A DNA stretch of 25,316 nt, from IMG/VR virus record IMGVR_UViG_3300008952_000278, positions 1-25,316 of that record; one strand, given 5' to 3'. The DNA comes from a virus. Each line of letters opens with the position of its first letter. The stretch's first letter is position 1. The notes beneath the pieces are model-generated. The model was not told the DNA's origin. It made no database searches and saw nothing but the letters and a program-made list of their open reading frames with translations. Both the position numbers and the translations under genes were made by a program. Below, one piece after another: positions 73 through 16,778 of the stretch.

Positions 73-573
73 ATGAAAACATTTCACATAGATGAGCCGA
101 GAGAAATCGGAAAGAAAAAGGTTAGAGTATCACCAAATGAGCTAAATGTGATAAAAAGTGATATTTATGAAAGATTAGTAAAAGAAGAGAAAATCATGAA
201 ACTAACAATGTCTGAATTGAAAGATGCGATAGATCAAGGTATAGAATCTGGATTTTTTGATGAAATTACAGAAGATATTATCGCGGATGATAAGGAAATG
301 TACGCTCTTATGGGAGCTTTTTTAACAGAGCTTAGAAAGAAAAGAGTAGTTAGAGGAAGAAAGATTTTTAAAAAAGTTATATGTCCAGGTAATAAAAGAT
401 ATGTACCAGCTCTCAAAAAATGTGTTATAAAAACTTCAAGAGAAAAGATGAAGAAACGGAGAGCAATGAAACGAGGCGCTATTAAGAAAAAAGGCAGAAT
501 GGGTCGTATTCTTAGAAGAAGACTGAAATCATTGAAGAAACGTAAAGCCTTTGGATTGAAGCGTGGAAGATAA
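73..573 (+). CDS. Small protein with Cys pair and strongly basic C-terminus
   Basis: The protein has 166 residues. The N-terminal 95 residues are mixed and acidic, with two predicted helices. A short segment then holds two cysteines (C104 and C117, CPG-x9-KKC pattern), followed by about 45 residues that are mostly Lys and Arg with almost no acidic residues. Such a tail would bind DNA or RNA, or be packaged with DNA, but no catalytic motif is visible. From memory, small phage proteins with a Cys-x10-12-Cys unit ahead of a basic tail occur in other marine T4-like phages, without known function. The stop overlaps the next start (TAATG at 571-575). No strong ribosome binding site precedes the ATG. 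Function unknown. Confidence 0.8.
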   Translation: MKTFHIDEPREIGKKKVRVSPNELNVIKSDIYERLVKEEKIMKLTMSELKDAIDQGIESGFFDEITEDIIADDKEMYALMGAFLTELRKKRVVRGRKIFKKVICPGNKRYVPALKKCVIKTSREKMKKRRAMKRGAIKKKGRMGRILRRRLKSLKKRKAFGLKRGR

Positions 574-3500
574 TGGACAGACTTACTGAATGGTTAGTTA
601 AACCCTATATAGAAAATATAAATGAGGATATAAATATACCTGTCAATGTTGGAGATACCATTTTAGTTGGTAGATTTAAAAATAAAAAAATGAAGGTCAA
701 GAGCATTGGTAAAGATGAACATGGTATGCCTACTATCAATGGTAGAAAAGCAACTACATTCAGAATTCCTAAAAAACAAGAAATAAAAGAAGGTGTAAAC
801 GATCCAGGTATACTTAAATGTGTATTTCTTGCAGGTGGCCCTGGAAGTGGTAAAACCTATATGACTAAAGGGTTATTTGGTATTCCAGATAGAATAAATG
901 TATCTAAATCAGGTATGAAAATGGTAAACTCAGATAAAGAGTTAAAATTTTTATTAAAGAAATTTGGGTTCGGTACTGATTTAGATAAAATGCCTGATGA
1001 ACTATTTAAACAATTAACCGATCCAAAAGATAAAGATTATAGTGGTTTTAGAGATTTTTCAAAAAGTTTAACTAAACAAAGAATGAAACAATATACTGAT
1101 GGTAGATTAGGTATTATAGTTGATGGTACTGGTCATAATTATGGTAAAATTTCTAAGATGAAAAAGGATGTAGAAAACTTGGGTTATGATACTTATATGA
1201 TTTTTATTAATACTACATTAGAGGTAGCATTAGAAAGAAATGAAAACAGAGATAGAATATTACCAAGAAATATTGTTGAAAAATCACATAGAGATGTAAT
1301 GAAAAATCTTGGTGGATTTCAAGGGTTATTTAAACAAAACTTTATGATAGCGGATAATAATGAAGATTTAGATGAGAAAAAAGCTGCTAAGAGATTTAAT
1401 ATGTTGGTTAAACAAGGTATTAATAAGTTTGTTAGAAAACCCATTCAAAATCCAATTGGAAAGGGTTGGGTTGAAAAACAAAAAATATTAGCAAAAAATG
1501 AAGGAATAGTTAGTGGTAATGGAACTATTATGGGAGCTCCTGATCCAAAAACAGTTAAAAAAATTAAAAAACAAGTAGATAATCAAAATAAAGATTTAAA
1601 ATATACAGATACATTTAGTTTACAACATCTTAATGAGTTTATAAATAAACCAAAGATGAAAAAGGCAATACAAAATTTAGTTGATAAAAATTTAATACCA
1701 AAAGTTTATGCTAAAAATACCAGAAAGTTACAAACTTTCCTTGTTAATAATCCAATGGTAATGACACAATTATTGAGAATACTTGGAGAAAAAGTTAATG
1801 AAGCATTTGCTGTAAGAGGTAGTAAGGTTGAAAAATTTATAACTGGTAAAAATCTTACACATAAGGGTAGAAAATATAAAGAGATAGAATTTGAAACAAT
1901 AAAAGTAGACAATCCTAAAAAAATGGTTACATTAAGAATCTTAGCACCTAAAAATTTATTTGGTCAAGAAGTACCTGTAAGATTTCAAACACTTCGAAGA
2001 GGCCCTTTTCTAAAAACCGATACAGGTAAAAAATTAAAAGAACAAAAAGAAATCAAAAAAGTTGTTGGTATCTATGGTGGTAGATTTCAACCGTTTGGCC
2101 CACATCATAAAAAAGTATATGAATGGATGAAGAAACAATTTGATGAAGTTTATATAGTTACATCTGATATTAAATCATTACCAAGACACCCAATGAATTT
2201 TAAAGAAAAAGTCCGTCATCTGGTTAAAATGGGTATTCCTAAGAAAAATATTGTTATGGAAAAAACACCATATAGAGCTATAAATACTTTAAAGAAATTT
2301 GATGAAGAAACTACAGCTGTTGTGTATGCTTTTGGAGCAAAAGATGCGGGTAGATTAAAAGCTGGTGCGTATTTTGAAGATTATAAAAAGAATAAAAACA
2401 ACATGGTTGGTTATAGAGAACAAGGATATATTGTAACCACACCACATTTTTCTATACAAGCGGGTGGAATGGAAGTAAGTGGTACGGCAATGAGACAATT
2501 ACTTGGTTCACCTAAGTATGCAGATGATAGGAAACGAAGATTTAAAAAATTCTTTGGTTATTTTGATCAAGGTGTCTATAATATGATGACTAATAAATTT
2601 AGTAAATTGTTTAGTGAAGATATAGTAATGTCTACAGAAGTTATACAAGAGTTTTTAACAGAGGTTGATATATCAAAATTATTAAAAGAATCTACTCTAA
2701 ATACTAAAGTACAGATAGATGATGGCCCAGTAACTTATTATAAGGGATTTAGTGATTATAAAAAGTATTCAACGGAGTGGATAGATTCAATATTTAAAGA
2801 AACTGGTTGGAAAGTTGTAGAATACGCGTTATCAGATAAGGCGATTGACCCAGCTTTTGATTATACTTTGAAGTATAGGTTTTTACCAACACCTTCATAT
2901 GGTACAACTGGTGTAGAGAAGATTGCATCTGGAAATCCTTCGTATGGTAGGTATAAAGAAAGAATTAATTTTATTTTATCAACTTTAGGATATGAGGTTT
3001 ATAAATGGATGGGCCTTGATGATAGTGATATGAAAGTTAAAGCACCTATTTTACCTGGTGCAGATAAAGATGTAGGGAATACAGATTTGAGAGAATCAAA
3101 GTTATTTTCTAAAGATTGGTGGACAGATCAGTTATTGATAGAGGAAATTTTAGAAATTGACCAAAGAATGACTTTAGAGGAAGGAATAAAGTTTAATAAC
3201 TTTTTAAAAGACTGGGCTAAAAAAGCAAAACAACCATTAGATAAAGTTAGAAAGTCAATGATGAACAAGAATACTTTTTCTGTTGCTAAATTAAATAATT
3301 TTAGTGTTGAAAAAGTATTTGATATGGCTAAGAAAGGGTTTAAAGCATATCAAAAAATTATCAACTATGTTCCTGATAAGATAGCGCAGAAATTAGCAAA
3401 GACTAAGTTTGGTGAAAAGAAAGAAAAAGCTTTAACTAAATTAGATGATTATTTAAAAGAACATCCAAAACTAAAAAGAGTAATGGGTTTAGGAGCAGCC

Positions 3501-5204
3501 GCGGCAGTAACTTATGCTTGGACTAAGATGACTTTTATCGGAGATCCAGAGTATGATTTAGATTTATCAGCAGCCGCCACAGCGGCCGCGACAGGAGATG
3601 TTAAGTTTGCAGATTTATTTAGTGGTCAAATGGGAACTAAATTTTTAGTATTAACTGTAGTTGGTGCTACTACAGGTTTGACAGCACCTTATGTAAAAGC
3701 GTTAGGTCGTGTTGGAACTATGGCAGCTGGTGTTGGGTTCGGTGCTTATAGAGCATATAAAGCTCGTAAACAAAGGAAAGCAGATGCCGAAAAGAAAACA
3801 AAAACATCTGTTCCAGATACCGTAAAGAATCCTAATCCAAAGGGTAGAAAGAAAACAGTTAGTCGTAAAAGTGCAGTTCAATGGGTAGCTAAAAATAAAG
3901 GAACAAAAGCTGCTAAGAAATACGCAAGAAGTTTGTCCGAAAGAGTTTCTATAGTTGAAGAATTAGATTTATTGTTGGAAGGTGGAGCATACGGACATAT
4001 GGCACATCCATTTGATGATAATAATTTAACTTTTGGGGATTTGAGGAACATAATTATATTAGGACTTGGTGGAAAACTAAGTCGTGAAGATAATGTTACA
4101 GAGAAACTTGACGGACAAAACCTAATGGTAAGTTGGGTTGATGGAGAATTAAGAGCCGCTCGTAATAAAGGACATTTGAAAAGTTATGGTAAATCATCAT
4201 TAACTACAAGTGGAGTAAAGAGTTTATTTAGTGGTAGAGGTGATGTGAAAGATGCTTTTGTAGGAGCTATGACAGATTTAGAAAACGCAATAGGTAGATT
4301 ATCAGATGCACAAAAAGAAAAAATATTCGGTAATGGTAAACGATGGATGAATTTAGAAATTATGTATCCTAAAACTGCAAATGTAGTTGATTATGATGTT
4401 GCAGAAATAGTATTTCATGGTACATTAGAGTATGATGAAAGTGGTAAACCAATAGGACAACCAAGAGATTCAGCTCGTATGTTGGCAGGTATGATTAAAC
4501 AAGTAAATGCAAATGTTCAAAAAACATTTAAAATTGGTAAACCTAATTTTTTAAAAATACCTAAAAATCAAAATTTTGGTAAATTAAAAAGAAAGTTTTT
4601 GGGTAGATTGAATAAATTACAAAAACAATATGCATTAACGAGTTCAGATTTATTAGGAGATTATCATAGAGCTTATTGGGAAGAATTTATTTTTAACGCG
4701 TCAAAACAATTTGATGTTAAATTAAAAAATAATCAATTAGTAAATCTGGTTAATAGATGGGCATTTTTTGATAAGTCATATAAGATACCAACGATAAAAA
4801 AAGATTTTAAAGATAATCCTAAATTTTTAGATTGGGTATTATCAACGGATAAACAAGACCATATGAAAATGTCAAAGAAAAATATTAAACCTTTTGAAGT
4901 TTTATTTTTTGAAGTTGGGGCAGAGATACTTAAAAATGTAAGTGGATATATAGCAGTCTCTCCAGATAAAACTGTTCAAAAAATTAGAAAAGAGGTTATA
5001 ACGGCTATTAAAGATTTAAAACAGAAAAAAAATGTAGAAAAATTAAAAAGTTTAAGAATACAATTAGAAAAATTAAAAGAAATTGGTGGATTGTCCGCAG
5101 TTGTTCCAAGTGAAGGAATAGTGTTTAAGTATAAAGGAAATATTTATAAGTTTACAGGTGCATTTGCTCCAATTAATCAGATTCTTGGGTCATTGAAATT
5201 TTAA
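573..5204 (+). CDS. Giant fusion: P-loop kinase, cytidylyltransferase-like domain, KxDG nucleotidyltransferase (ligase-type)
   Basis: The protein has 1543 residues and several domains. Residues about 20-63 look like a small beta-barrel (VGDTILVGRFKNKK). A zeta-toxin/polynucleotide-kinase-like P-loop domain follows: Walker A GGPGSGKT at 88-95, VDGTGHN at 183-189 and an Arg-rich lid RNENRDRILPR at 222-232. Residues 497-641 match the nucleotidylyltransferase superfamily (NMNAT/cytidylyltransferase fold), with GRFQPFGPHH at 503-512 and SGTAMR at 636-641. The middle has two hydrophobic stretches (about 970-991 and 1024-1060). The last 400 residues resemble a covalent nucleotidyltransferase/ligase: motif I K1178-L-D-G, motif Ia-like RAARNKG (1194-1200), motif IV-like EGIVFKY (1514-1520) and K1526 near the end. 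Kinase plus ligase suggests RNA or DNA end repair; kinase plus NMNAT-like fold could instead mean NAD metabolism. The domain calls are firm, the substrate is not. The gene lies upstream of the head genes and overlaps its predecessor by one base. Confidence 0.88.
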   Translation: MDRLTEWLVKPYIENINEDINIPVNVGDTILVGRFKNKKMKVKSIGKDEHGMPTINGRKATTFRIPKKQEIKEGVNDPGILKCVFLAGGPGSGKTYMTKGLFGIPDRINVSKSGMKMVNSDKELKFLLKKFGFGTDLDKMPDELFKQLTDPKDKDYSGFRDFSKSLTKQRMKQYTDGRLGIIVDGTGHNYGKISKMKKDVENLGYDTYMIFINTTLEVALERNENRDRILPRNIVEKSHRDVMKNLGGFQGLFKQNFMIADNNEDLDEKKAAKRFNMLVKQGINKFVRKPIQNPIGKGWVEKQKILAKNEGIVSGNGTIMGAPDPKTVKKIKKQVDNQNKDLKYTDTFSLQHLNEFINKPKMKKAIQNLVDKNLIPKVYAKNTRKLQTFLVNNPMVMTQLLRILGEKVNEAFAVRGSKVEKFITGKNLTHKGRKYKEIEFETIKVDNPKKMVTLRILAPKNLFGQEVPVRFQTLRRGPFLKTDTGKKLKEQKEIKKVVGIYGGRFQPFGPHHKKVYEWMKKQFDEVYIVTSDIKSLPRHPMNFKEKVRHLVKMGIPKKNIVMEKTPYRAINTLKKFDEETTAVVYAFGAKDAGRLKAGAYFEDYKKNKNNMVGYREQGYIVTTPHFSIQAGGMEVSGTAMRQLLGSPKYADDRKRRFKKFFGYFDQGVYNMMTNKFSKLFSEDIVMSTEVIQEFLTEVDISKLLKESTLNTKVQIDDGPVTYYKGFSDYKKYSTEWIDSIFKETGWKVVEYALSDKAIDPAFDYTLKYRFLPTPSYGTTGVEKIASGNPSYGRYKERINFILSTLGYEVYKWMGLDDSDMKVKAPILPGADKDVGNTDLRESKLFSKDWWTDQLLIEEILEIDQRMTLEEGIKFNNFLKDWAKKAKQPLDKVRKSMMNKNTFSVAKLNNFSVEKVFDMAKKGFKAYQKIINYVPDKIAQKLAKTKFGEKKEKALTKLDDYLKEHPKLKRVMGLGAAAAVTYAWTKMTFIGDPEYDLDLSAAATAAATGDVKFADLFSGQMGTKFLVLTVVGATTGLTAPYVKALGRVGTMAAGVGFGAYRAYKARKQRKADAEKKTKTSVPDTVKNPNPKGRKKTVSRKSAVQWVAKNKGTKAAKKYARSLSERVSIVEELDLLLEGGAYGHMAHPFDDNNLTFGDLRNIIILGLGGKLSREDNVTEKLDGQNLMVSWVDGELRAARNKGHLKSYGKSSLTTSGVKSLFSGRGDVKDAFVGAMTDLENAIGRLSDAQKEKIFGNGKRWMNLEIMYPKTANVVDYDVAEIVFHGTLEYDESGKPIGQPRDSARMLAGMIKQVNANVQKTFKIGKPNFLKIPKNQNFGKLKRKFLGRLNKLQKQYALTSSDLLGDYHRAYWEEFIFNASKQFDVKLKNNQLVNLVNRWAFFDKSYKIPTIKKDFKDNPKFLDWVLSTDKQDHMKMSKKNIKPFEVLFFEVGAEILKNVSGYIAVSPDKTVQKIRKEVITAIKDLKQKKNVEKLKSLRIQLEKLKEIGGLSAVVPSEGIVFKYKGNIYKFTGAFAPINQILGSLKF

Positions 5205-5770: not shown

Positions 5771-5779
5771 TATATTTAT
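5771..5779 (+). promoter_or_regulatory. Candidate late promoter element (TATATTTAT)
   Basis: This lies in the 48-base gap before the gene at 5817, ending 37 bases before its ATG. It matches the ATATTTAT core that recurs in most of the intergenic gaps of this window. There is no recognisable -35 box. Assignment as a promoter is inference from position and recurrence only. Confidence 0.35.
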
Positions 5780-10480: not shown

Positions 10481-10497
10481 TGAATTTTTTCATAGTT

Positions 10498-10513
10498 TTA
10501 TATTTATTAGTGA
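10498..10513 (+). promoter_or_regulatory. Candidate late promoter element (TTATATTTATTAGTGA)
   Basis: All 16 bases are identical to 16794-16809 before the neck gene. In both places the ATATTTAT core ends 33 bases before the ATG. No -35 partner is shared, which would fit a clamp-driven T4-type late promoter, though the sequence is not the T4 TATAAATA. Inference from recurrence. Confidence 0.5.
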
Positions 10514-10540
10514 TAGAATACATATACATTGGAGTGATTT

Positions 10541-11422
10541 ATGTCTAAAAAAATAAAACACACTAAAATTAAAAATACAGGTGTGCTATTTGAAGTGCTG
10601 ACTCGTCAAGTCACCGCCGATATAATAGAAAATAGAGATTCAAAATCTATTAATTTAATAAAAAAATATTTTAATAAAACAACTAATTTGGGACAAGAAT
10701 TAGATTTATATAATATATTGGTAAATGAAAGTTATAAAAGTTCACATAATGCAAATAGACTTGTTGAAGCGGTAGTTAAATCTCGACAAAAATTGTCAAC
10801 TGTGAGTTTAAGACGAGAAAAATATAATCTTATTAAAGAATTAAAGGATAAGTATGACGTAAATAAACTATTTGCTACTCGTATCCCAAATTATAAAAAA
10901 TTAGCATCAATCTATAAAATTTTTGAACATGAAAGTACAGAAAAATCACTTAGACCAGATGAATATGTTAATGTTCGTTCTTATTTAACAGAAAGTATAT
11001 GTGCTGAAAAAGTAGGTAGGACGGAACAACAATCTAATGTTGTAGCAGAAGATAAAGAAATTAGATTATTGGCTTATTCACTTATGGTGGAAAAATTTAA
11101 TAAGAAATATTCTAATTTGACTGAAAAACAGAAGATGATACTAAAGAAATATATTAATAATATTTCTAATACGAGTAATTTACACGAATATGTTTCTGAA
11201 GAGGTTATGGGAATTAAAACAGAATTGACTAAACTTTTACCAGAAGTAACTGATAAAATAACTAAAATAAAACTATCAGAAGTAATAAAACAGTTAGATG
11301 CAATGACTGTAGGTAAGAAAAGAATAAGTGAAAAGGCACTTATTGCTTTAATGAGATACTATGAGCTAATTGAGGAATTAAAAGATGTCAGTAAACGACA
11401 ATCTAAGACAATTAATTCGTAA
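10541..11422 (+). CDS. Unknown protein in the prohead-core position
   Basis: The protein has 293 residues, is basic and largely helical, with no signal peptide or membrane segment. It begins MSKKIKHTKIKNTGVLFEVL, then NLIKKYFNKTTNLGQELDLY; conserved-looking Lys/Tyr/Asn-rich helices follow to the C-terminus. I see no catalytic triad, so it does not look like the gp21-type protease that T4 has in this area. From memory, similar proteins follow the portal in other marine T4-like phages, uncharacterised. A good TTGGAG lies 6 bases before the ATG. Its 3' end overlaps the next gene by 38 bases. It is the first gene after the candidate promoter at 10498. Confidence 0.82.
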   Translation: MSKKIKHTKIKNTGVLFEVLTRQVTADIIENRDSKSINLIKKYFNKTTNLGQELDLYNILVNESYKSSHNANRLVEAVVKSRQKLSTVSLRREKYNLIKELKDKYDVNKLFATRIPNYKKLASIYKIFEHESTEKSLRPDEYVNVRSYLTESICAEKVGRTEQQSNVVAEDKEIRLLAYSLMVEKFNKKYSNLTEKQKMILKKYINNISNTSNLHEYVSEEVMGIKTELTKLLPEVTDKITKIKLSEVIKQLDAMTVGKKRISEKALIALMRYYELIEELKDVSKRQSKTINS

Positions 11423-12101
11423 ATATATTAAGGAAGTTCTCAAAGAACTGGAAGAAACATCTTTTAGTAGTGGAGCGGGAGCCTATAATACACCTTTTGC
11501 TTTTAGTGGGGGTAGAGACAAGGATAAAAAGAAAAAGAAGAACGTATCAACTAATTCTACAGGATATAAAATAGTAGAAGCGGCGAAGGTAAGAAAAGTA
11601 GTACTTGAAGTACCAAAAAATATTTATGGAATGAAACTAACTAAATCAAAATTAAGAGAAATCATTAGAGAAGAAATTCAGTCTATTAAAGAAGGCGGAA
11701 TGGGTATATTAGATTCAGACCAAGCAGATATATTACAAGCAATAGTAATGAGAAATAAAAGTAAACCCACGAGAGCTATTCTAAATCTTGCACTAAAGAG
11801 TGGACATTTTAAAGGTGTTGATAAAAAAGAATTATTAGGATATATTGACGGAGCAAGACAATTTGTTAAATATATGAAAAGTCATCCAATAAATGCTATA
11901 AAAGAAATTAGTGGTATAGATTTAGCAAAAAAAGTTGTTAAAAATAAACAATACGAAAAGGGTATGGATTTATTTACAGCTCAATATATTGTTCAAACAT
12001 ATGATGCATACAAAAATCATCCTGAGTTGAGAAAGAAAATCGAAAAGCTATCAGTTCCTAAAGCAGTCAAGTTGGCAAACTTGGTAATGAAAGGTAGATA
12101 A
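11385..12101 (+). CDS. Prohead-core-position protein with two copies of an amphipathic targeting-like helix
   Basis: The protein has 238 residues. It starts inside the previous gene in another frame, with GAGG at 11372-11375 nine bases before the ATG. Two short amphipathic helices are alike: LRQLIRKYIKEVLKE near the start (7-21) and LTKSKLREIIREEIQSIKE at 85-103. The first is followed by a Ser/Gly linker (SSGAGAYNTPFAFSGG) and a Lys run. The second leads into a helical domain to the end. The second helix begins just after an internal Met (83), so the protein reads like two short core proteins joined end to end. Function unknown; internal head protein is an inference from position and the helix motif. 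Confidence 0.8.
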   Translation: MSVNDNLRQLIRKYIKEVLKELEETSFSSGAGAYNTPFAFSGGRDKDKKKKKNVSTNSTGYKIVEAAKVRKVVLEVPKNIYGMKLTKSKLREIIREEIQSIKEGGMGILDSDQADILQAIVMRNKSKPTRAILNLALKSGHFKGVDKKELLGYIDGARQFVKYMKSHPINAIKEISGIDLAKKVVKNKQYEKGMDLFTAQYIVQTYDAYKNHPELRKKIEKLSVPKAVKLANLVMKGR

Positions 12102-12349
12102 TGATTAAGTTAAAAGAAATTATCAAAGAAGAAGATTATAATAAACAATACGTAAAAGAAGCTTATCGTACTCCTGATGAATTAGGTGCAGCTATGCGTC
12201 GTAGTATAGATGAATTATCCGTTGTTTTAAAGAAAGCACAAAAAGGAAGATTAGGTCCAGAAGGATGGGCAAAAAAATATTTTAGGAGTGCTCCAAAAGC
12301 AATTGAGATGATTGAACATCTAATTGGTATACTGAAAAAAATGAAATGA
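12101..12349 (+). CDS. Small core-position protein, MIKLKEIIKEE start
   Basis: The protein has 82 residues. Its start MIKLKEIIKEEDYNK resembles the short amphipathic helices of its neighbours and has an I-K-E tripeptide that would fit T4-type prohead protease cleavage. The body is helical and basic (MRRSIDELSVVLKKAQKGRL, then EMIEHLIGILKKMK). AAAGGT six bases before the ATG serves as ribosome binding site, and the start also overlaps the previous stop (TAATG). No family recognised. Possible packaged internal protein. Confidence 0.75.
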   Translation: MIKLKEIIKEEDYNKQYVKEAYRTPDELGAAMRRSIDELSVVLKKAQKGRLGPEGWAKKYFRSAPKAIEMIEHLIGILKKMK

Positions 12350-12636
12350 TTAAGTTAAAACATATATTAACAGAGAAAAGAGAATTAGGTGGTGCAATAA
12401 TAGATAAGATTCACGACTTAACTGATAAAAATGCTCATAATATGGCTAGACTTACACTTGCTAAAGCAATGAGAAATAAAATTCTTATGAAAAATTACGA
12501 AGCATTAATGACATTACATACAAAACTTCGTGATATGAATGATTTAACCTCAGCTCGTAATAGGTTAGATAAAGAATTATTTGCTCAAGCAAAAAAAATG
12601 TATAGTGATTATGATATAATATATGGAGCATTTTAG
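12346..12636 (+). CDS. Small core-position protein, MIKLKHILTEK start
   Basis: The protein has 96 residues. It begins MIKLKHILTEKRELGG, sharing the first five residues with the preceding protein (MIKLK) and carrying L-T-E, a possible prohead protease site. The rest is helical and basic with many Met, Lys and Asn. The start overlaps the previous stop as ATGA and lacks a clear ribosome binding site, implying translational coupling. No family recognised. Confidence 0.73.
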   Translation: MIKLKHILTEKRELGGAIIDKIHDLTDKNAHNMARLTLAKAMRNKILMKNYEALMTLHTKLRDMNDLTSARNRLDKELFAQAKKMYSDYDIIYGAF

Positions 12637-12980
12637 TGAGTAAAAAATCAATATATAAACAGTTAATGACTGAATTAGATGAAGCACCTTTAAGTTCTAC
12701 ATCACAATTACCATTCAGTTCAACAGAGGCTAGACAATTAGTTGAAAAAGATGTAGTTGTAATGTCAAAGATTTTAGGAAAAGCATCACAACAATCCATT
12801 AAAACAATGATGAATGGTGTAAAAAGTGGTAAGTACGATGCTTTTGATTTACAAAGAGCAATAATGACAGGTCCTGTTAAAGATACTGGTACAGGACAAA
12901 GAGATATGATGAGAGCTTTGTGGAACCGAGTAAGAGATGGTTTCAGACGATATTCTAAAAGAGGAAAACTCAGAAAATAA
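12636..12980 (+). CDS. Small core-position protein with GTG start
   Basis: The protein has 114 residues. The GTG at 12636 overlaps the previous TAG, and GGAG at 12625-12628 lies 7 bases upstream, which decides this start. The N-terminus MSKKSIYKQLMTELDEAP again is a short basic-hydrophobic helix ending in acidic residues (L-D-E). The C-terminal 25 residues are very basic (RVRDGFRRYSKRGKLRK). No membrane segment or enzyme motif. An internal head or nucleic acid-binding protein is plausible but unproven. Confidence 0.75.
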   Translation: MSKKSIYKQLMTELDEAPLSSTSQLPFSSTEARQLVEKDVVVMSKILGKASQQSIKTMMNGVKSGKYDAFDLQRAIMTGPVKDTGTGQRDMMRALWNRVRDGFRRYSKRGKLRK

Positions 12981-12988
12981 ATATTTAT
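12981..12988 (+). promoter_or_regulatory. Candidate promoter-like element (ATATTTAT)
   Basis: Directly follows the stop of the previous gene in a 27-base gap and ends 19 bases before the next ATG, closer than the copies at 10500 and 16796. It matches the recurring core but may be chance in AT-rich DNA. Confidence 0.25.
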
Positions 12989-13007
12989 ATAATATTGGAG
13001 ATATAAA

Positions 13008-13634
13008 ATGGCTAAAAAAATCAAAATGAAAGATTTAATGAACGAAAACTTTTCAACAATATCTACTGTTGGTGGTATTGTTACAGCTAAACCATTTCAT
13101 ACAGATATGAGTTTATCAGCTCTTGTAAAAGAAAAATATGGTGAAGTTGAAGAACAAGAAATTGATATTGAAGGTTTAAAAAATGAATTAGCTGAGTTTA
13201 ATAAAATTGGTGAAGCTCTTTTTGGTAAATCCAATATTATAGATATTGCAGAGAAATTAAGTTGGATTGCAAGTCAAGCTAAGAATCATACTTTAAGTGA
13301 AACAGAAGATTGGTTTGATAAAATTACAATCAATCGTAATATGAAAGAACTTACATCACTTTCTAAAAACTTTTCAAAGATAGCTGGTGAAGCTAAATCA
13401 GTTCAAGAAAGAATGTCAGCACTATATGAAGATATGGGTCATATACTTTCTCGTTATTATGAAGTAAATGAAAAGACAGAAAATACTATTGATGAAGGTG
13501 ATTATGAAGCATTCTTTCAATCTACTATGAAAAAGTTTGGCATCTCATCACCAGATGAATTAGATGATGATAAGAAAAAAGAATTTTTTAATTATGTAGA
13601 TGCTAATTACAAGGCAGAAAAAGAAACAGACTGA
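13008..13634 (+). CDS. Core-position protein, acidic, helical
   Basis: The protein has 208 residues. It starts MAKKIKMKDLMNENFSTIST, a basic amphipathic start like its neighbours, followed by a short Gly/Thr/Phe segment (VGGIVTAKPFHTDM). From about residue 50 it is acidic and helical (EIDIEGLKNELAEFNKIGEAL, then long helices with KELTSLSKNFSKIAGEAK). The last 40 residues are acidic (SPDELDDDKKKEFFNYVDAN). GGAG precedes the ATG by 8 bases. No catalytic motif; I cannot match it to the T4 gp21 protease. Likely an internal head or core component by position only. Confidence 0.78.
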   Translation: MAKKIKMKDLMNENFSTISTVGGIVTAKPFHTDMSLSALVKEKYGEVEEQEIDIEGLKNELAEFNKIGEALFGKSNIIDIAEKLSWIASQAKNHTLSETEDWFDKITINRNMKELTSLSKNFSKIAGEAKSVQERMSALYEDMGHILSRYYEVNEKTENTIDEGDYEAFFQSTMKKFGISSPDELDDDKKKEFFNYVDANYKAEKETD

Positions 13635-13636
13635 GG
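13633..13636 (+). promoter_or_regulatory. Ribosome binding site deciding the TTG start of rpsU
   Basis: GAGG five bases before the TTG at 13642. It overlaps the stop codon of the preceding gene (TGA at 13632-13634), so rpsU translation is probably coupled to it. Confidence 0.6.
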
Positions 13637-13641
13637 TTAAT

Positions 13642-13827
13642 TTGATAGAAGTAAAGGTTCGTAAAGGTAACATAGAAAAAGCTTTAAGACAATTAAAAAA
13701 ACAAGTAAAAGAAACAAAGTTATTTTTAGAATTGAAAGATAGAGAGTTTTACACTAAACCCTCTGCAATTAAAAGAGAAAAAAGAGCTAAATCCCTGTTA
13801 AGAAGAAGAAAATTATCAGAAAACTAA
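13642..13827 (+). CDS. rpsU: Ribosomal protein bS21 homologue encoded by the phage
   Basis: The protein has 61 residues from a TTG start. It opens IEVKVRKGNIEKALRQLKK and continues LELKDREFYTKPSAIKREK, matching the bS21 pattern: a beta-strand V-x-V-R-x-N/G start, an A-L-R-x-x-K-K helix, the R-x-x-x-Y-x-K-P-S core and a basic C-terminal helix. Length fits bacterial bS21 (about 60-75). The TTG at 13642 is chosen because GAGG at 13633-13636 lies 5 bases upstream and because it gives the canonical N-terminus; the frame opens earlier, at an ATG at 13600, but that would add 14 foreign residues. bS21 sits at the mRNA exit of the 30S subunit near the anti-Shine-Dalgarno helix. Phage copies are known, for example in pelagiphages; a role in biasing host ribosomes to phage mRNA is a hypothesis. 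Confidence 0.9.
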   Translation: MIEVKVRKGNIEKALRQLKKQVKETKLFLELKDREFYTKPSAIKREKRAKSLLRRRKLSEN

Positions 13828-13843
13828 CTCTTTTTTATATTTC

Positions 13844-13861
13844 TGTATATTTATATATACA
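13844..13861 (+). promoter_or_regulatory. AT palindrome containing the ATATTTAT element
   Basis: TGTATAT-TTAT-ATATACA: perfect 7-base arms around a 4-base centre, 106 bases before the scaffold ATG. The recurring element (13847-13854) lies inside it. If it is a promoter, the scaffold/capsid message carries an unusually long 5' leader of roughly 100 bases. Could also be an operator or a weak hairpin. Confidence 0.35.
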
Positions 13862-13869
13862 AAAATAAA

Positions 13870-13903
13870 TACACTACGAACATTCCGTTCATCTTGTAGT
13901 GTA
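13870..13903 (+). ncRNA. Leader hairpin upstream of scaffold gene
   Basis: TACACTAC (13870-13877) pairs perfectly with GTAGTGTA (13896-13903). Inside it GAAC (13878-13881) pairs with GTTC (13887-13890) around an ATTCC loop, leaving an ATCTT bulge on the 3' side. That gives 12 base pairs. There is no U run after it, so it is not an intrinsic terminator. It lies between the candidate promoter at 13847 and the scaffold gene, so it would be in the 5' leader of the scaffold/capsid mRNA; a stability, processing or control element is inferred. Confidence 0.45.
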
Positions 13904-13967
13904 ATCAAGAAGTAATTCTATTATAGTTCCAAATAACTATATTAATATCCAATTATGGAGATAAGTA

Positions 13968-15056
13968 ATGGATAATTTATTAAAAGACGCCATTGCTGAT
14001 GCAAAAGCAGTTCGTGAAACAGCTCTTGAAAATGCTAAAATCGCTTTAGAAGAAGCTTTCACTCCACGTTTACAGTCTATGCTTTCTAAGAAGATTCAAT
14101 CTGAAATGGAAAACGAAGAAGCTGTAACAGAAGAAGAAGCTGAAGAAGCTGAAGAAGCTGAAGAAGGCTATATGAACGATGAAGACGAAGACCCAACTGA
14201 TGACCACTCTGAAGAACCTGAAATAGATATGGAAGAAGACGAAGAAGAAGCAGGTGAAGAAGAAATGGAAGAAGAAGGCGTAATCGAAATCGATGGTGTA
14301 AAATATGCACCTGTAGTTTCTGAAGAAGAAGACGAAGAAGCAGAAGAAGAAGCTGAAGAAGTTTCTGAAGAAGAAGAAGCTGAGGAAGGTGAAGATGATG
14401 AGATGGATGAAGACCTAGACCTTGACGAAATATTAAAAGAGCTAGAAGAAGAAGCAGAAGAAGACGAAGAAGCTGAAGAAGTCGAAGAAGCTGAAGAAGT
14501 TTCTGAAGCAGAAGAAGCAGAAGAAGACGAAGAAGCTGAAGAAGTTGAAGAAACTGTCGAAGAAGAAGCTGTTGTTGAAGGTGAAGAAGAAGAAGTAGAA
14601 GAAGATATCGACCTTGAAGAAGTTCTTAAAGCTTTATCTGAAGAAGATGAAGAAGAAGTTTCTGAAAATACTGATGATCTCACTACTCTTAAAGCTGACC
14701 TTGAAGAGCATCGCAATGTAGTAAAGTACTTACGTTCTAAGTTAAACGAAGTTAATTTGTTAAACGCTAAGTTGTTGTTCACCAATAAACTTTTCCGTGC
14801 ATTTGGTTTATCAAATGACCAGAAGATGAAAGTTGTTGAAACATTCGACAGAGCAGCAAATCTTCGTGAAGTTAAATTGGTTTACTCCACTTTAGCAGAA
14901 TCTTTCGGAACGAAAGTAGAGAAAAAAGAAATCAAAGAATCCAAGGGCTCAGCCTCTAAAGCTGTTGCTTCAACTAAATCAGAAAAACAAGAAGAAATTA
15001 TTTCTGAAGGTGAAGTAATTAAAAATCGCTTTAAGAAGTTAGCCGGGATTATTTAG
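13968..15056 (+). CDS. 22: Prohead core scaffold protein (T4 gp22-like)
   Basis: The protein has 362 residues. The N-terminus (AKAVRETALENAKIALEEAF, then TPRLQSMLSKK) and the C-terminal helical domain (LNEVNLLNAKLLFTNKLFRA, FDRAANLREVKLVYSTLAES) match the prohead scaffold family of T4-like phages. The protein ends KNRFKKLAGII, a likely capsid-contact tail. Residues about 48-236 are an almost wholly acidic, Glu/Ala/Asp low-complexity tract. The scaffold fills the prohead and is degraded by the maturation protease, consistent with many (I/L)-x-E tripeptides. GGAG lies 7 bases before the ATG. The capsid gene follows 11 bases downstream. Codons such as CGT, GAC and AAC are commoner here than in flanking genes, as expected for a highly expressed pair. 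Confidence 0.92.
   Translation: MDNLLKDAIADAKAVRETALENAKIALEEAFTPRLQSMLSKKIQSEMENEEAVTEEEAEEAEEAEEGYMNDEDEDPTDDHSEEPEIDMEEDEEEAGEEEMEEEGVIEIDGVKYAPVVSEEEDEEAEEEAEEVSEEEEAEEGEDDEMDEDLDLDEILKELEEEAEEDEEAEEVEEAEEVSEAEEAEEDEEAEEVEETVEEEAVVEGEEEEVEEDIDLEEVLKALSEEDEEEVSENTDDLTTLKADLEEHRNVVKYLRSKLNEVNLLNAKLLFTNKLFRAFGLSNDQKMKVVETFDRAANLREVKLVYSTLAESFGTKVEKKEIKESKGSASKAVASTKSEKQEEIISEGEVIKNRFKKLAGII
14100..14680 (+). repeat. Purine-rich GAA/GCT triplet tract coding for the acidic scaffold region
   Basis: Imperfect tandem GAAGAAGAAGCT-type units run through about 580 bases. They encode blocks such as EEAEEAEEAEE. The frame is kept throughout and nearly every Glu is GAA. Such tracts can change length by slippage in multiples of three. 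On the other strand the tract yields a Ser-rich open frame that is an artefact. Confidence 0.8.
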
Positions 15057-15067
15057 GAGATATAATA

Positions 15068-16699
15068 ATGTCTAAAATGAAAAATCTTGGAACAATCGAA
15101 AAGTTGATGGATGGATATAATCCTTACCGTCAGCGTCAAGAAGAGACCCGCGGTTTAGTCAAGAAGTGGGAATCAACCGGTTTGTTAGAAGGTTTGAACG
15201 AAGAACAAAAAGTTCAGGGAATGGCAGTACTTCTTGAGAACCAAGCACGTCAGTTAATTGACGAAGCTAGTTCTACAGGTACATCAGCTAACTCAGAAGA
15301 GTGGAGCGGTGTTGCACTTCCTTTAGTTCGTAAAATCTTTGGTGAATTAGCAGCACAGGAATTCGTTTCTGTTCAGCCAATGAACCTACCTTCCGGTCTT
15401 ATATTTTATCTTGACTTTAAATACGGCACAGCACAACCTGGATTTGGTGATGGTGAGCAAGTATTTGGTGTAACATCAGGTAGTGGCGACCCAACAGCTG
15501 GACTTTATGGTGCAGGTAGATTCGGATATTCAATTAACGAAGCTACTAGTACAAGTCAAGCTACAGCAGCAATTACAGGTTCTGCAACTTGGGTAATGGT
15601 TGATTTTGAACCAGACTTGTCAAGTTCTTTAAGTAACTTAAAGTACTGCGATGTACCGTTGTCAACAATGTCAAACCCAGATAAAGAAGGTGTAAGAGCT
15701 TTCAAACCTACAGGTTCAGCAGCTCTTACAGCATATTACCCAGCATACACTAAAATCTTAAATGGTGTAGCAGGTAGTGAAGTTGCTCCTTCAGATACGA
15801 CGGCATCACACGTTCGCTTTATTATTGATGAAGGTTCAACAGCAGCTAACGTTTCTGTTCAATATCATAAAGCACCAACTGACACAACACGTGGTGACTT
15901 TGAAGATACACCAACTGAACCAGCAACTGATTCTGGTATCCCAGAAATCGATATCGCAATGCGTTCGATTCCTATCGTTGCTAAAACACGTAAGTTGAAA
16001 GCAGTTTGGACTCCTGAGTTAGCACAAGACTTAAATGCATACCATTCAGTTGATGCAGAAGCAGAACTTACTTCACTACTTAGTGAGTATGTATCAATGG
16101 AAATCGATCTTGAAATCCTTGATATGCTTCGTCTTAATGCTATTGCTAAGACAGAAAAATGGTCAGCAAAAGTTGGCTATGAGTTAAACGCCGCAGGAAC
16201 AGCATTTGAAGAAACATCTGCTAATTCAAACGCTTACACAAAAGGTGAGTGGTTCCAGACTCTTGGTAACAAGATACAGTCTGTTTCCAACGCAATTCAT
16301 CAGAAAACACTCAGAGGTGGAGCTAACTTTATTGTAGTTTCTCCTGAGATTGCTACAGTCCTTGAATCTATTCCTGGATACGCAACTGATTCTGATGGTG
16401 CTTCAACAAACAATTCTTACGCAATGGGCGTACAGAAAGCTGGAATGTTGAACAACAGATTCACAGTATATAAGAACCCATACCAGTTCGAGAATGTAAT
16501 TCTTGTTGGTTTCCGTGGAAGTAACTTCCTAGAAACAGGTGCTGTGTATGCTCCTTATGTACCGATGATTATGACACCTCTTGTATACGACCCAACTAAC
16601 TTTACTCCAAGAAAAGGTGTAATGACAAGATACGCTAAGGAAGTTGTCAGACCCGAATTCTACGGTAAAGTTGTCGTAGCAGACGTAGACAAAGTTTAA
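15068..16699 (+). CDS. 23: Major capsid protein (T4 gp23-like)
   Basis: The protein has 543 residues, close to T4 gp23 (521). The N-terminal propeptide (MSKMKNLGTIEKLMDGYNPY) ends in LLENQARQLIDEASSTG, where the L-I-D-E66|A67 junction fits the T4 prohead protease cleavage rule (I/L-x-E). Next comes the conserved segment WSGVALPLVRKIFGELAAQE, then VSVQPMNLPSGLIFYLDFKYG of the HK97-fold family. The C-terminus (RKGVMTRYAKEVVRPEFYGK) is also typical. AGGAG lies 8 bases before the ATG. An intrinsic terminator follows. Arg is mostly CGT/CGC (about 11 to 7 AGA by eye) and Asn is often AAC, unlike the AGA/AAT-rich neighbours, indicating selection for high expression. Confidence 0.96.
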   Translation: MSKMKNLGTIEKLMDGYNPYRQRQEETRGLVKKWESTGLLEGLNEEQKVQGMAVLLENQARQLIDEASSTGTSANSEEWSGVALPLVRKIFGELAAQEFVSVQPMNLPSGLIFYLDFKYGTAQPGFGDGEQVFGVTSGSGDPTAGLYGAGRFGYSINEATSTSQATAAITGSATWVMVDFEPDLSSSLSNLKYCDVPLSTMSNPDKEGVRAFKPTGSAALTAYYPAYTKILNGVAGSEVAPSDTTASHVRFIIDEGSTAANVSVQYHKAPTDTTRGDFEDTPTEPATDSGIPEIDIAMRSIPIVAKTRKLKAVWTPELAQDLNAYHSVDAEAELTSLLSEYVSMEIDLEILDMLRLNAIAKTEKWSAKVGYELNAAGTAFEETSANSNAYTKGEWFQTLGNKIQSVSNAIHQKTLRGGANFIVVSPEIATVLESIPGYATDSDGASTNNSYAMGVQKAGMLNNRFTVYKNPYQFENVILVGFRGSNFLETGAVYAPYVPMIMTPLVYDPTNFTPRKGVMTRYAKEVVRPEFYGKVVVADVDKV

Positions 16700-16745: not shown

Positions 16746-16778
16746 AAAAAGGGGAGATTTCGGTCTCCCCTTTTTTTT
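16746..16778 (+). terminator. Strong intrinsic terminator after major capsid gene
   Basis: GGGGAGA (16751-16757) pairs with TCTCCCC (16764-16770) around TTTCGG, followed by eight T residues; the A run before and T run after extend the stem to 12 pairs. The symmetry would also terminate transcription from the other strand, but no minus-strand gene is seen. It separates the head unit from the neck and tail unit that begins at the element at 16794. Confidence 0.92.

Follow-up and report, generated by a model that had tools for sequence, protein, structure and literature searches.

The window, by which we mean the whole stretch of 25,316 nucleotides analyzed here, is a 25-kb virus record that encodes a T4-type terminase, portal and gp23 capsid protein, all on the same strand. 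Matches to PF07230 (portal, 258.6 bits), PF03237 (42.7 bits) and PF07068 (gp23, 259 bits) mark the region as a T4-like head gene cluster. Between the portal/terminase genes and the scaffold and gp23 capsid genes lies an open reading frame on the + strand (13,642–13,827), which starts with TTG at 13,642, ends with a TAA stop codon at 13,825–13,827 and is translated into a product of 61 residues. This gene encodes ribosomal protein bS21. Directly 5′ of it is g15 (13,008–13,634, + strand), a conserved head-cluster gene that matched PHROG 28651 (E = 9e-9) and precedes bS21 across the clade according to tblastn. On the other side follow a putative scaffold or prohead core protein (13,968–15,056, + strand), the major capsid protein gp23 (15,068–16,699, + strand) and, 3′ of the capsid gene, a terminator-like hairpin with a 13-bp stem and a T run (16,746–16,775, + strand). 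The scaffold candidate is acidic, adjoins gp23 and was assigned by its position and its conservation across relatives (tblastn); it had no family match in the domain profile search. A prohead protease was not recognized between portal and scaffold (10,481–13,968), an interval in which a protease-like gene is present in L109 and other relatives. Elsewhere in the window, positions 573–5204 encode a fused protein of 1543 amino acids with zeta-toxin/polynucleotide-kinase-like, cytidylyltransferase-like and weak RNA-ligase-like parts.

The predicted 61-residue protein matched PF01165 (Ribosomal_S21; 50.8 bits, E = 1.4e-13, cut-off 27, profile positions 1–54 of 55) and TIGR00030 (S21p; 52.7 bits, cut-off 28.95, profile positions 2–57 of 58). 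PHROG 21469 (‘ribosomal protein S21’) was a further match, and a structure-chain search retrieved solved bS21 chains. The family match is far above chance and confirms a preliminary description of this DNA, which had reported a bS21 of this size with exactly these coordinates; the profile searches, which could have placed the product outside bS21, placed it inside the family with scores over the curated cut-offs. The same description had located the gene in the head cluster, and the portal (PF07230), gp23 (PF07068) and terminase large subunit genes are indeed its neighbors. The protein is small and basic; it has an (R/K)xxY-x-KPS core, and its C-terminal helix is likewise basic: REFYTKPSAIKREKRAKSLLRRRK. 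Thus, the bS21 core that had been noted is present, but its spacing has to be corrected from R-x-x-x-Y-x-K-P-S to R-x-x-Y-x-K-P-S (REFYTKPS). In comparison with the near relative L002, bS21 had a dN/dS of 0.054, the lowest among five neighboring genes (0.09–0.16 for the other four), and the gene evolves under purifying selection.

A Shine-Dalgarno (SD) motif, GAGG (13,633–13,636, + strand), is located 5 nt 5′ of the TTG; AGAGGTT is conserved here in relatives. The motif overlaps the stop codon of the upstream gene (13,632–13,634), an arrangement suggesting that translation of bS21 may be partly coupled to that gene. The TTG is kept in the near relatives L002 and L003 (97% identical). In the near clade of the window, bS21 usually begins with TTG or GTG, preceded by an SD of the AGAGGTT or GGAGG type, with TTG in L039–L041, L043, L044, L046, L047, L052 and L108, GTG in L029, L031, L032 and L036, and ATG in L059. 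Because non-ATG starts with a conserved SD recur in the near clade, the weak TTG start is genuine, as had been proposed, and it looks as if it has been kept by selection. An alternative ATG start at 13,600 (75 aa) was rejected; it overlaps the upstream gene, and the TTG is where the domain starts and where a conserved SD is placed.

Across 30 kb of intergenic DNA from the clade, TATTTAT was found 173 times on the coding strand (~25 expected); its reverse complement ATAAATA, the T4 late motif, was not enriched (22 observed, 31 expected). We infer that TATTTAT is a strand-specific promoter-like element of this clade. A scan of the window for sigma-70 promoters gave matches at chance level. One late-promoter-like TATTTAT box stands before the g15-bS21 pair (12,982–12,988, + strand) and another heads the leader of the scaffold gene (13,848–13,854, + strand); more boxes occur at 5773, 10,501, 16,778 and 16,797. 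With the second box and a conserved leader RNA between them, bS21 and the scaffold-capsid genes probably belong to separate transcripts. Read most simply, g15 and bS21 would form one unit with its own box, in which bS21 comes second, and scaffold-capsid transcription would start anew. The gene had been described as part of one operon with the capsid gene, and the promoter-like boxes suggest that it is probably not on that transcript. If so, the TTG start, which had been held to keep bS21 below the level of the capsid protein, is only part of the argument about expression levels.

The leader between bS21 and the scaffold gene (13,828–13,967, + strand) comprises 140 nt and folds better than 200 of 200 shuffled sequences (z = −3.57). 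It contains two hairpins. In the first (ACACTAC...GTAGTGT; 13,871–13,902, + strand) each of the seven pairs had changed on both sides within the set of 34 sequences, and in the second (TATAGTT CCAAAT AACTATA; 13,922–13,941, + strand) four of seven pairs had done so and 100% of the cells were paired, which amounts to 11 of 14 pairs in the 34 aligned relatives. Across the alignment, the share of paired cells was 96.0%; shuffles gave 78.3%, with none of 500 reaching the observed value, and sliding the partner gave no more than 46.5%. A covariance model of the leader (R1) matched members outside its training set (for example, L108 with 88 bits, L109 with 79 and L056 with 78), always 5′ of the scaffold gene; in ten phage contigs or genomes of 52–216 kb, it found a single copy of the element in each record. 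No Rfam family scored over threshold; the best weak match had 22.2 bits, below its cut-off of 52.1. The leader is equally present in members that lack bS21 (immuto L023, L063, L073, L083, L087 and L091) and is therefore not tied to bS21. This rules out that it is kept for regulation by bS21.

Four capsid-based scans of viral contigs yielded at least 153 distinct assessable members of the gp23 clade, of which L037 was left out owing to its rearranged locus, so that 152 members were counted. Among the matches listed, 95 of these members carried bS21 and 57 did not; in the first batch, absences were backed by PF01165 searches of the whole records. In every bS21-carrying member among the matches listed, including the window, the gene was co-directional with the capsid gene (+ strand), and mostly it was situated 1.1–2.8 kb 5′ of it. 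The position is thus conserved, the relatives that carry bS21 having it in the same slot. Pairwise distances for bS21 followed those for the capsid (Mantel r = 0.67, 0 of 2000 permutations). These results show that bS21 is a long-standing core gene of the gp23 clade, which was mostly inherited together with the capsid gene. The location, which the preliminary description had taken to be unusual, is shared by most of the clade and resembles that in previously described phages (Chen et al. 2022). A phylogeny against host bS21, which had been suggested for host assignment, would not settle the host, as 61 amino acids are too few and bS21 of this clade tracks the capsid gene.

SD strength was calculated as the energy with which the 16S tail pairs with the 18 nt preceding each gene start, the starts having been called mechanically; members were divided into SD-rich and SD-poor at a cut of half of their genes. 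Among the 152 members in the matches listed, SD-rich phages comprised 75 with bS21 and none without, whereas the SD-poor phages comprised all 57 bS21-less members and 20 with bS21. The capsid start was preceded by an SD in 84% of the members with bS21 and in 14% of those without it, again among the matches listed. In a phylogenetic regression, bS21 was accompanied by a mean SD pairing stronger by 3.1 kcal/mol (p = 7e-9, lambda = 0.95), a p-value that is optimistic because the tree contains only about six changes in the state of bS21. No more than five independent supported pairs could be formed, of which 3.7 agreed on average and none opposed (sign test not significant). At the level of the clade, the association between bS21 and SD use is thus suggestive. 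Phages without SD use appear to have mostly lost bS21. The 20 SD-poor members with bS21, as well as the previously published bS21-carrying Bacteroidetes phages, whose hosts lack SDs, indicate that bS21 is not used only together with SDs.

Based on these data, we propose that the core head-cluster bS21 is made late in infection, enters the 30S subunit and favors SD-led phage mRNAs, an explanation that, taken as a whole, we see as evenly balanced between right and wrong. The protein would be made from a late g15-bS21 unit, its translation depending on the SD, being partly coupled and beginning at a weak start codon. The protein would then enter 30S subunits, either replacing host bS21 or joining subunits that lack bS21; the late replacement of host bS21, which had been suggested before for this gene, is plausible. 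bS21 is in contact with the site of anti-SD pairing (PMC9723584), and at the 30S platform, beside the anti-SD, phage bS21 could favor initiation on the SD-led late mRNAs for scaffold, capsid and tail proteins. If it is true that phage bS21 shifts the choice of mRNAs, the outcome would be a virus-made specialized ribosome. The clade also bears on the question of why, of all ribosomal proteins, bS21 is the one most often carried by phages, and it offers matched natural pairs of phages with bS21 and SDs, with neither, and with bS21 and few SDs.

The association could also have arisen if SD use and the retention of bS21 both follow the host, so that phages of Bacteroidia, as hosts that ignore SDs, lose both and phages of SD-using hosts keep both. 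In that case, bS21 would be a general late supply or repair of ribosomes, with no selectivity for phage mRNAs. Both the small number of bS21 transitions on the tree and phage immuto, the sole clade isolate with a well-supported Bacteroidota host, which lacks bS21 as well as SDs, speak for this explanation. However, phage Mel-JY01 has Bacteroidota-type promoters and yet possesses bS21 and SDs, and phages whose bS21 has an aromatic, Bacteroidia-like residue 54 are SD-rich. We regard host-driven co-occurrence as a serious possibility, albeit one that we would sooner doubt than accept. A role outside the ribosome, with bS21 acting as a basic RNA-binding regulator of the scaffold leader or as a virion component delivered at infection, appears very unlikely. 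Although the gene directly precedes the conserved structured leader, and packaging into virions was raised as a possibility by Chen et al. (PMC9723584), the leader is just as present without bS21, which is therefore not the reason for its conservation, and the protein sequence retains the full bS21 profile. That bS21 is a passenger or auxiliary gene recently captured from the present host is hardly credible, given that, among the matches listed, almost every SD-using member of this diverse clade has it in the same slot and that its distances are congruent with those of the capsid gene.

The proposed preference for SD-led mRNAs might take a special form in Bacteroidota. Tyr54 of Bacteroidia bS21 stacks on A1534 and blocks anti-SD pairing, and its loss raises SD-led translation (PMC9976891). 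If host bS21 thus hides the anti-SD and host mRNAs are SD-less, as this reading presupposes, bS21 of the clade could let 30S subunits read SDs and thereby favor SD-bearing late phage mRNAs. We consider such a ribosome switch unlikely. In its favor, Mel-JY01 bS21 has Lys at position 54, and SDs precede 54% of the Mel-JY01 genes behind TATTTAT (late-type) boxes compared with 29% of those behind Bacteroidota-type promoters (p = 0.004). The Flavobacterium phage immuto, with no bS21 and almost no SDs (5%), was also counted for the switch. In the window, L002 and L003, residue 54 (F. johnsoniae numbering) is Leu, and the window protein thus lacks the aromatic residue of the Bacteroidia-type anti-SD latch. 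Among the matches listed, an aromatic residue 54 was found in about twenty clade members, nearly all of them SD-rich. Tyr54 occurs in L084, L095, L099, L100, L112, L114, L115, L142, L177 and L181, phages with strong SDs, which are signals that Bacteroidia ribosomes should ignore. The finding of an aromatic residue 54 in several SD-rich members argues against the switch, and a simple mimicry model leaves it unexplained. A further point against the switch is that Bacteroidota-type promoters were not seen in the nearer relatives of the window.

Evidence on hosts came from translation signals, promoters and genome bins. Of the 26 starts in the window, 69% had an SD of ≤ −4 kcal/mol compared with 16% at random ATGs, which argues against translation by an unmodified Bacteroidia ribosome. 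The Bacteroidota promoter consensus consists of TTG, a spacer of ~19 nt and TAnnTTTG (PMC6847099). In Mel-JY01 (L024, PP395634.1), which is filed under Microcystis, TTG was present ~19 nt upstream at 19 of 27 TAnnTTTG sites; hence, its assignment to a cyanobacterial host may be mistaken and the real host may be a member of the Bacteroidota. Neither the Bacteroidota nor the sigma-70 motif was enriched in L040 and L043, with the exact TAnnTTTG count also failing on the positive control immuto; despite this failure, immuto shares the TTCGTATA part. One scan of contigs from bacterial genomes retrieved only two phage contigs, in MAGs of Flavobacteriales and Euryarchaeota, and these assignments disagree. 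Two different phage contigs of the clade (L331 and L332), each with bS21, were binned in the Flavobacteriales MAG NAT55, where host-type rpsU was not found; this binning was counted as a hint for the ribosome switch.

bS21 dominates among viral ribosomal proteins (Mizuno et al. 2019, PMC6375957). For phages, its proximity to head genes has already been described, and a ribosome substitution late in infection has been proposed (Mizuno et al. 2019; Chen et al. 2022, PMC9723584). In the Bacteroidetes phages studied by Chen et al., bS21 is encoded in the head region on the opposite strand, is highly transcribed late, and typically lies 2–4 genes from the prohead protease and major capsid protein genes (PMC9723584). 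These large myoviruses resemble the window in that bS21 lies in the terL-portal-prohead protease-capsid region and late use has been proposed, but they have an aromatic residue 54 and their bS21 is oriented against the head genes, whereas the window has a co-directional bS21 close behind a head gene, Leu54 and SD-led genes around it. The bS21 proteins of the pelagiphages HTVC008M and Mosig belong to the same family, are of the same size and share 50–55% identity with the window protein over the aligned part; unlike in the window, where bS21 is near the capsid gene, their genes lie in the replication region near those for the sliding clamp and RegA. When expressed in E. coli, HTVC008M bS21 enters 70S ribosomes, which then translate poorly (PMC6375957). 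In F. johnsoniae, the state of bS21 alters mRNA choice (McNutt et al. 2023, PMC9976891); the window protein belongs to the same family but lacks the Tyr54 of that bS21. Two phages of the same capsid clade, Mel-JY01 (annotated RpsU, PP395634) and the huge phage LR756508 (bS21 open reading frame), have bS21 in the same slot as in the window, 5′ of scaffold and gp23. Unlike in the window, bS21 and the scaffold gene of Mel-JY01 are ~1.5 kb apart, with two genes in the interval, and the head genes of LR756508 lack SDs. Compared with these systems, the new aspects are the association with SD use, the vertical inheritance within a defined capsid clade, the probable separate promoter and the leader, and the conserved weak start.
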